A stretch of 33,966 nucleotides of DNA from Gemmatimonadales bacterium (GTDB taxonomy: Bacteria > Gemmatimonadota > Gemmatimonadetes > Gemmatimonadales > GWC2-71-9). Location: assembly GCA_025928645.1 (NCBI GenBank), contig JAICJD010000017.1, forward strand, positions 1 through 33,966, read 5' to 3'. The position numbers and the translations under genes are program-made. Positions within the stretch are counted from its first letter, which is position 1. The number at the start of each line of letters is the position of its first letter. Positions 30,006 through 31,506 of the stretch are shown one piece after another. The notes beneath the pieces are model-generated. The model saw only the letters and a program-made list of their open reading frames with translations, was not told the origin of the DNA and searched no databases.

Positions 30006-30460
30006 GCGGGCGCCTCGAAGGGATCTGGATCAAGCGCGCCCACCGCGGTCCCATGAACGCCGCGGAGCGGGGCACGCTGGTTGCCGGACGCGGGCTGGTG
30101 GGCAATGCCGACCAGGGCCGCCGGCGTCAGGTGACCATCATCGAGCGCGAGGTCTGGGCCCGGCTCATGCGCGAGCTGCGCGCCGATGCGGCCCCGTCCG
30201 CGCGCCGGGCCAACCTCATGATCAGCGGCGTGAGCCTGGCCGGCCGGCGGAACGCGGTGCTGCTGATCGGCGGGTGCCGGGTGCGGGTCCTGGGCGAGAC
30301 GAGGCCGTGCGAGCGGATGGATGAGGCGCTGCCGGGGCTGCGCGAGGCGATGAAAACCGGCTGGGGCGGCGGGAGCTTCGGGGAAGTGCTCGACGACGGC
30401 GAGATTGCCGTGGGGATGGCGGTCCGCTGGGTGGAAAACGACGGCGGCCGGCCCGAGTGA
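30002..30460 (+). CDS. MOSC domain protein
   Basis: A 152-residue MOSC (molybdenum cofactor sulfurase C-terminal) domain protein. Family features are the WIKRAHRGPMNAAERGTLVAGRGLVGNAD opening (split blocks WIKRAHRGPM and GRGLVGNAD), RRRQVTIIEREVW, and GETRPCERM with the conserved Cys103 that carries the labile sulfur. Bacterial MOSC proteins act with molybdenum cofactor or as hydroxylaminopurine-detoxifying reductases. The GTG overlaps the previous stop by 4 nt. It converges with cspA across a shared hairpin. Confidence 0.88.
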   Translation: MSGRLEGIWIKRAHRGPMNAAERGTLVAGRGLVGNADQGRRRQVTIIEREVWARLMRELRADAAPSARRANLMISGVSLAGRRNAVLLIGGCRVRVLGETRPCERMDEALPGLREAMKTGWGGGSFGEVLDDGEIAVGMAVRWVENDGGRPE

Positions 30461-30477
30461 CCTCGAGCCGGCCGCCG
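30442..30477. terminator. Hairpin between convergent MOSC and cspA genes
   Basis: CGGCGGCCGGC (30442-30452) and GCCGGCCGCCG (30467-30477) form a perfect 11-bp stem with a 14-nt loop. It straddles the MOSC stop and lies 15 nt beyond the cspA stop on the minus strand, so it is well placed for both. No T-run follows. Confidence 0.55.
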
Positions 30478-30492
30478 CGTTACGCGCGGTCG

Positions 30493-30705
30493 TTATCGTC
30501 CGAGCTTCACGACGTTCTCCGCGGCGGGACCCTTCTGGCCCTGAACCACGTCGAACTCGACCCGCTCGCCCTCGGCGAGGGTCTTGAAACCCTGACCCTG
30601 GATCGCCGAGTGATGGACGAAGCAGTCCTTCTGGCCGCCTTCGGGCGTGATGAAGCCGAAGCCCTTGGCGTCGTTGAACCACTTGACCGTGCCGGTGGTG
30701 CGCAT
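30493..30705 (-). CDS. cspA: Cold shock protein
   Basis: A 70-residue CspA-family protein, an OB-fold single-stranded nucleic-acid chaperone. Both RNA-binding motifs are present: RNP1 KGFGFIT (14-20) and RNP2 CFVHHSAI (28-35); the start [19 protein letters not shown] is highly typical. The ribosome site is AGGAG on the minus strand. No nearby TAnnTTG box sits immediately upstream; the nearest on this strand is at 30911-30917, beyond an intrinsic terminator, so a long leader is possible. Confidence 0.97.
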
Positions 30706-30798
30706 TGTTCCTACTCCTTGCTATGCTGTAATCGGAGTTCGGTCATGCCGCACCTACCCGACTACGCGATGTGCGTGACGTCGCCCTCACGCCGGGCC

Positions 30799-30814
30799 GC
30801 TGCCGGTCGGCAGC
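30799..30814 (-). other. Small perfect hairpin in the cspA leader
   Basis: GCTGCC and GGCAGC (6-bp stem) flank a 4-nt loop, lying just downstream (minus strand) of the T-run of the intrinsic terminator and about 95 nt before the cspA ATG. It could be part of a structured cold-shock leader. Confidence 0.35.
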
Positions 30815-30815
30815 A

Positions 30816-30853
30816 CAAACAAAAAGGGAGCCGGCGCGAACTCCGCCAGCTCC
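30816..30853 (-). terminator. Intrinsic terminator on the minus strand
   Basis: On the minus strand, GGAGCTGGCG pairs with CGCCGGCTCC (10 bp, one G-U pair; plus-strand positions 30844-30853 and 30827-30836) around a 7-nt loop, and CTTTTTGTTTG follows directly. In the plus-strand transcript the G-U position would be a C-A mismatch and there is no T-run, so it works in the minus direction. It is the best terminator in the window. No minus-strand protein gene lies immediately upstream. Confidence 0.8.
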
Positions 30854-30905
30854 TCGTGTCCTGTCCTGGAACCTTGGCTACGCCGCCCGCCTATGCGGCG
30901 GAAGT
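30821..30905 (-). ncRNA. Candidate small RNA or attenuated leader upstream of cspA
   Basis: Between a TAnnTTG box and an intrinsic terminator on the minus strand there are about 85 nt with no start codon in a useful frame. The segment can fold: CCGCC-GCATA-GGCGG near its 5' end, then the terminator stem near the 3' end. It could be a free small RNA, or the start of a roughly 200-nt cspA leader controlled by termination. The ends are estimates. Confidence 0.45.
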
Positions 30906-30910
30906 GCGCG

Positions 30911-30917
30911 CAAGATA
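30911..30917 (-). promoter_or_regulatory. TAnnTTG promoter-like element (TATCTTG)
   Basis: Read on the minus strand the bases are TATCTTG, matching the element found upstream of other genes. A start of transcription is expected at about 30903-30906, giving either a short RNA ending at 30821 or a leader reaching cspA. GACGGC-GCTCG-GCCGTC, an inverted repeat just upstream, could be a binding site. Confidence 0.45.
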
Positions 30918-30963
30918 GACGGCCGAGCGCCGTCTCGCAAGTCCCTTCACCCGGAGTCCGCCA

Positions 30964-31506
30964 ATGCCTACGAGCGCACCGCGCGCCCGCATCGCCCCTC
31001 CCGGCCCGGATGAGTACGGGGCCAGCTATGCCGACTACGTCAGCCGGGTGCCGGCCGGAACGGACATTCTCGACCTGCTCGAGCGCCAGCGCGAGAGCAC
31101 GCTCGCCCGCATCGGCAAGGTGCCCGAGTCGCGAGGCGCGTACCGCTACGCGCCGGGCAAGTGGAGCATCAAAGAGGTGGTGCTTCACGTGAGCGACACC
31201 GAGCGCATCATGGCTTACCGGGCGCTCCGCGTCGGGCGGGGCGACGGGACGCCGTTGCCGGGGTTCGACGAGAACGTCTACGCCCCCGCATCCGGCGCGG
31301 ACGCCGTTCCGCTGGCGGAGCTGGCGCAGGCGCTGAGCGACGTGCGCCGCACGACGCTCGCGCTGTTGCGCCATCTGCCGCCCGAGGCGTGGACCCGCCG
31401 AGGCACGGCCAGCGGAGCGCCGGTGAGCGTCCGCGCGCTGGCCTGGATCATCGCGGGGCACGAGCACCACCACGTCGAGGTGCTCGCCGAGCGCTACGGA
31501 CTCTGA
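30964..31506 (+). CDS. DinB family protein
   Basis: A 180-residue DinB/YfiT-like four-helix protein. The metal triad is visible: H75 in VVLHVSDTER, and H166 and H170 in GHEHHHVEVL near the C-terminus. YAPGKWSIKEVVLHVSDTERI is the standard DinB block. Members are metal-dependent thiol transferases or of unknown role. GGAG precedes the ATG at 7 nt. The 258-nt gap before it contains the minus-strand RNA features described above. Confidence 0.9.
   Translation: MPTSAPRARIAPPGPDEYGASYADYVSRVPAGTDILDLLERQRESTLARIGKVPESRGAYRYAPGKWSIKEVVLHVSDTERIMAYRALRVGRGDGTPLPGFDENVYAPASGADAVPLAELAQALSDVRRTTLALLRHLPPEAWTRRGTASGAPVSVRALAWIIAGHEHHHVEVLAERYGL

Follow-up and report, generated by a model that had tools for sequence, protein, structure and literature searches.

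Introduction

The nearest published case to the leader described here is that of cspB and cspG of E. coli, which undergo premature Rho-dependent termination (PMC7815308). Both systems would share an early cut in csp transcription, within the 5' UTR or the ORF, but the E. coli genes depend on Rho, whereas the leader in Gemmatimonadota, another phylum, is conserved across its class and carries a strong intrinsic hairpin and a U-tract soon after the start of transcription, which argues for intrinsic rather than Rho-dependent termination. The cspA 5'-UTR thermosensor family (RF01766; E. coli, Listeria, Agrobacterium, and Corynebacterium) likewise has a long structured leader with hairpins before the ribosome-binding site; leaders of this type reportedly work through translation or the stability of the mRNA, and an intrinsic terminator is not described for them in the published accounts consulted. 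The csp leader of Listeria is a thermosensor acting on translation (PMC8079631), thermosensors have been proposed for the csp leaders of Agrobacterium (PMC3738593) and Corynebacterium (PMC3890552), and the csp leader of S. aureus is processed by RNase III (PMC3386247). In B. subtilis, the 5' UTRs of cspB and cspC contain cold-shock boxes, and cspC expression rises when point mutations fall within or close to one such box (PMC8307031); judged by their description, these boxes resemble the present leader in being conserved leader elements, but an intrinsic terminator is not described for them.

Attenuation of genes encoding RNA-binding proteins is already known. According to the main text of a survey of premature intrinsic terminators, such genes are enriched among attenuated genes (PMC2965389), and neither "csp" nor "cold" occurs in that main text. 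The rimP leader and the ribosomal protein leaders, as presented there (PMC2965389), share with the csp leader the order of promoter, leader, intrinsic terminator and RNA-binding-protein gene, together with possible self-control; unlike in those leaders, any binding site for the cold-shock protein (CSP), or any other ligand, is putative in the csp leader. CSPs themselves act at intrinsic terminators (PMC9765468, PMC7858274, PMC8307031): in E. coli, CspA, CspC, and CspE lower termination at metY-rpsO, as does CspD overproduction at other terminators (PMC9765468), while loss of CspB and CspD in B. subtilis mostly raised read-through (PMC8307031). These cases involve the same protein family and the same type of RNA target as considered below, but the targets lie in other operons and not in the csp gene's own leader. 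Our search of the open-licence literature turned up no previous account of a csp leader with an intrinsic terminator, which does not prove that none exists. An earlier note on this DNA had likewise taken such a terminator to be undescribed, in agreement with this limited search, in which the Rho-dependent termination of cspB and cspG (PMC7815308) was the known case.

Anatomy of the csp Leader

The DNA analyzed, called the window below, is a stretch of 33,966 nucleotides from a Gemmatimonadales bacterium with a genome of 3.9 Mb in 294 contigs. Nearly all of the named csp loci closest to that of the window belong to Gemmatimonadota, which places the window in this phylum. The features of the locus are, in the direction of csp transcription:

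30964-31506, plus strand: divergent DinB-family gene (PF12867), upstream of the leader
30935..30940, minus strand: -35-like hexamer TTGCGA (from the sequence)
30911..30917, minus strand: -10-like box TATCTT(G) (from the sequence; promoter score 15.3)
30854..30905, minus strand: 5' untranslated segment from the predicted start to the terminator, with one optional hairpin; contains TTCCAG
30827..30853, minus strand: intrinsic terminator hairpin, stem GGAGCTGGCG/CGCCGGCTCC of 10 bp, one of them U-G, and a loop of 7 nt
30816..30826, minus strand: terminator U-tract CTTTTTGTTTG (from the sequence)
30773..30792, minus strand: hairpin H2, GCGTGA..TCACGC, 3' of the terminator (covariation counts, helix 1)
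30728..30765, minus strand: hairpin H3, GTAGTCGG..CCGATTAC, inner stem GTnCGG/CCGnAC (covariation counts, helices 2-4)
30713..30719, minus strand: ribosome-binding site AAGGAGT (from the sequence; conserved in the leader alignment)
30493..30705, minus strand: csp, encoding a cold-shock domain protein of 70 aa (PF00313, E 7.8e-32)

The earlier note had pointed to a TAnnTTG box at 30917-30911 on the minus strand, and TATCTTG is indeed present there. Exactly 17 bp upstream of this -10-like box lies the hexamer TTGCGA, which was absent from that note's list, and TTGCGA-N17-TATCTT forms a sigma-70-like promoter that would place the transcription start near 30905. The first two bases of the -10-like box are invariant among 42 aligned leaders, in an alignment that was anchored on that same box. 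The 17-bp spacer of the promoter in the window (30918-30934) is a perfect inverted repeat, GACGGC-GCTCG-GCCGTC, which is absent from the other leaders compared by eye and which is possibly an operator or a product of chance. Downstream of the promoter, the sequence of the 5' segment is weakly kept among relatives except for an ACCAG/TTCCAG-like motif.

The terminator hairpin has a folding energy of -20 kcal/mol (z = -4.2), equalled by none of 200 shuffles, and all of the parts that had been attributed to it (a 10-bp stem, one G-U pair, a 7-nt loop, and a T-run) are found at 30853-30816 on the minus strand. The terminator is also directional, with a T-run on the minus-strand side only. The csp start codon is at 30705, and the distance from the end of the T-run to the ATG is 111 nt, close to the 115 nt or so that had been estimated. 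The DinB-family gene upstream is divergent, and a 228-codon minus-strand ORF (30787-31473), which crosses the leader site and is antisense to the DinB-family gene, is taken as spurious. The closest solved structures to the csp product, by sequence, are of the CspC/CspE type. Beyond the gene, csp and a MOSC gene end convergently, and the interval between their ends holds a long inverted repeat (about 30445-30480; CGGCGGCCGGC...GCCGGCCGCCG) that is GC-rich and lacks a T-run; similar hairpins are also seen 3' of csp in several relatives (L004, L010, and L017).

A scan of the window for tRNA and tmRNA genes gave none. The Rfam search gave no family at the gathering threshold; with E-values up to 5 allowed, the matches were no better than chance, and the cspA thermosensor RF01766 was not among them.

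Conservation of the Terminator

When the first 50 csp loci of the same order were scanned with one threshold, terminators were present in 33 of 49 leaders, compared to 3 of 49 on the antisense strand and 44 of 839 random segments. Across the class, a strict intrinsic terminator was found in 71 of 128 non-redundant csp leaders, with its end 27-166 nt (median 126 nt) ahead of the ATG; the approximately 45% of leaders that fail the strict test include some with bulged stems and some that truly lack a terminator.

The stem was compared in a family-level alignment, in which 96.2% of positions were paired and three pairs were doubly changed, a count that 24 of 500 shuffles reach; pairing was lost upon sliding. 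As an example of such variation, the third pair is A-U at the window locus and G-C in the close relative L002. Exchange of 3' arms among 57 distinct stems lowered the pairing from 96% to 61% (maximum 68%), a test that is partly circular since the stems had been picked for pairing. In the MAFFT terminator alignment, the 3' arm was mis-registered and the pair counts were not significant, and a structure-anchored count and the family-level alignment were used instead. Conservation of the stem in relatives had been named beforehand as a test of the proposed element, and the outcome, with pairing conserved and sequence not, points to a terminator that is kept by selection.

Promoter, Terminator, and csp as a Probable Single Unit

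A promoter with a score of at least 13 was located just upstream of the terminator in 65 of these 71 csp leaders (92%), while 11% of the other terminators in the same DNA (n = 75) had a promoter directly upstream. The spacer is 17 bp in 60 of the 65 promoter-bearing leaders, and in these the median distance between predicted start and terminator end is 70 nt. Promoter and terminator are found jointly in 65 of the 128 class-level csp leaders, related leaders being counted separately and not as independent events, compared to 6 of 4275 background windows (0.14%). Since the leader unit is moreover the sole promoter-plus-terminator pair within the 34-kb window, we take it as more than chance. The order of promoter, terminator, and csp stays intact though the neighboring genes differ; by sequence, an intrinsic terminator with a promoter upstream and a gene downstream forms one unit, as in an attenuator.

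Downstream of the csp-leader terminators, promoters were near the background level (10% of cases versus 5%), and a promoter search of the region from terminator to ATG in the first 40 leaders gave scores no better than those of shuffles. Four compact leaders (L059, L141, L143, and L146) have only 27-75 nt from the end of the terminator to the ATG, and nothing promoter-like stands between their stem and ATG; csp is therefore probably transcribed by read-through in these leaders.

Hairpins H2 and H3

Covariation in H2 and H3, counted over 47 leaders and 19 pairs, gave 66 doubly changed cells compared to 31 in shuffles, none of 500 shuffles being as high, and sliding lowered the pairing from 87.5% to 44% or less. 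A covariance model of this part of the leader, R1, which includes H3 and the ATG, scored 84.6 bits at 30703-30808 of the window, whose own leader was part of the model. Of 200 genomes from the phylum, 129 were matched by R1, and the matches listed and compared by eye with csp positions end at the csp ATG, which is part of the model; the csp loci of other phyla that were included in the comparison gave no match with R1. The H2/H3 part is separable from the terminator, as the compact leaders and another csp copy of the source genome (C108) are without some or all of it, and some leaders have H3 while a terminator is undetected. In many leaders, a purine-purine mismatch is kept at the third position of the H3 inner stem GTnCGG/CCGnAC, as if this were a structured binding site.

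Other csp Copies and Other Lineages

Three of the four csp genes of the source genome have a leader terminator, namely the window copy, C216, and C108, and the fourth, C137, is without one. The csp of C108 is 66% identical to that of the window and carries a hairpin and T-run 84 nt before its ATG, followed by a different downstream leader. Outside the phylum, 5 of 58 csp loci passed the joint promoter and terminator scan, and a search of plasmids gave a single weak match. A promoter-like site together with a terminator-like hairpin was observed in the csp leaders of L125 (Terriglobia), L069, L076, L087, and L089, and also of L196 and L202 from another class of Gemmatimonadota; some of these may be due to chance or be part of upstream genes. 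The csp at 2001 of L117 (Streptomyces sp. HNM0574, another phylum) has a strong hairpin and U-tract (GCGCCTGAAGGC ATCT GTCTTCAGGCGT TTTTG) about 100 nt before the ATG.

Discussion

The feature is most probably a csp 5' leader that acts as a transcription attenuator by means of an early intrinsic terminator. While the anatomy of the leader and its conservation are read directly from the sequences compared, premature termination in the cell is what we infer from that anatomy. RNA polymerase would start near 30905 and meet the strong intrinsic terminator after about 80 nt, where much of the transcription would end and release a short RNA, and polymerase that reads through would make the csp mRNA. 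The remaining csp leader would then fold into H2 and H3 beside the ribosome-binding site, which would probably affect translation or stability.

A different arrangement, with a stand-alone small RNA gene between the divergent genes and a second promoter, downstream of that unit, driving csp, would also account for a promoter and an intrinsic terminator of its own, with a released RNA of about 80-90 nt, and the 5' segment often holds a hairpin (mean z -0.5). However, the region between terminator and csp gives no promoter signal above background, the compact leaders are too short for a second promoter, and the unit recurs before csp despite differing upstream neighbors, with the joint pattern concentrated there. 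Moreover, the 5' segment drifts fast, with a mean column identity of 35% and a short motif only, a pattern that argues against a separate gene for a trans-acting RNA, and a conserved seed independent of the downstream gene was not found. We consider this arrangement improbable; where the earlier note had offered both a free RNA and a csp leader, comparison with relatives favors the leader, and a free RNA survives mainly as the terminated product of that leader. Even less credible is a hairpin with no regulatory role that insulates csp or the DinB-family gene from stray transcription or ends an upstream gene. Intergenic terminators are common, and some relatives seem to have a co-directional upstream gene, but the upstream gene in the window is divergent, and the promoter stands directly before the terminator in 65 of 71 leaders, so that an insulator in this position would shut off csp as well.

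Within the attenuator reading, read-through would be regulated, and the likeliest regulator would be the cold-shock chaperone, in a feedback on the nascent leader of its own gene. This is our leading inference as to the regulator, since proteins of the CSP family alter read-through at intrinsic terminators. The direction of the effect could go either way, because E. coli CSPs mostly promote read-through and CspB and CspD of B. subtilis termination. Another account, which competes only with the feedback step and is compatible with the leader reading, is a mutually exclusive antiterminator helix in which an upstream CCAG pairs with CUGG of the terminator arm; temperature or the speed of transcription, and not CSP, would tune it directly. 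Before the stem, no 5-mer is more enriched than ACCAG (19 compared to 3.1 expected), and CCAG and CUGG co-occur (24 of 38 versus 5 of 27; Fisher p 4e-4, with relatedness ignored), a co-occurrence that we regard as a weak lead. On the other hand, such a helix has only four base pairs, the window has TTCCAG and CTGG, whose pairing would be weak, and the energy-based antiterminator test was null: the 5' segment and the terminator arm paired no better than shuffled sequences did (mean z 0.2). We consider this helix unlikely as the regulatory device. Long-range pairing of the 5' end with the post-terminator region was good in a few leaders but not overall (mean z 0.37).

A terminator hairpin that alone senses temperature directly would work in the wrong direction for cold induction. 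A cold-stabilized hairpin would by itself favor termination, which fits poorly with induction in the cold and counts against the attenuator reading, cold induction itself being assumed here. Attenuation by a leader peptide was rejected, the segment before the stem being usually only 20-60 nt, too short for such a conserved peptide, and without a conserved reading frame.

That cold-shock chaperones of Gemmatimonadota autoregulate through read-through of their leader terminator, with the attenuator operating class-wide, is a claim that we put forward tentatively, as a real possibility rather than as a probable one. If such autoregulation is true, the terminators in Streptomyces, Terriglobia, another class of Gemmatimonadota, and the C108 paralogue would mean repeated origin. 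An early stop of transcription would join the modes of csp control that work mainly through translation and the stability of the mRNA, and Gemmatimonadota, in which RNA regulation has received very little study, would gain a leader element. The terminator in the csp gene's own leader would also be a natural test object for the unsettled role of CSPs, between antitermination as in E. coli and promotion of termination as in B. subtilis.
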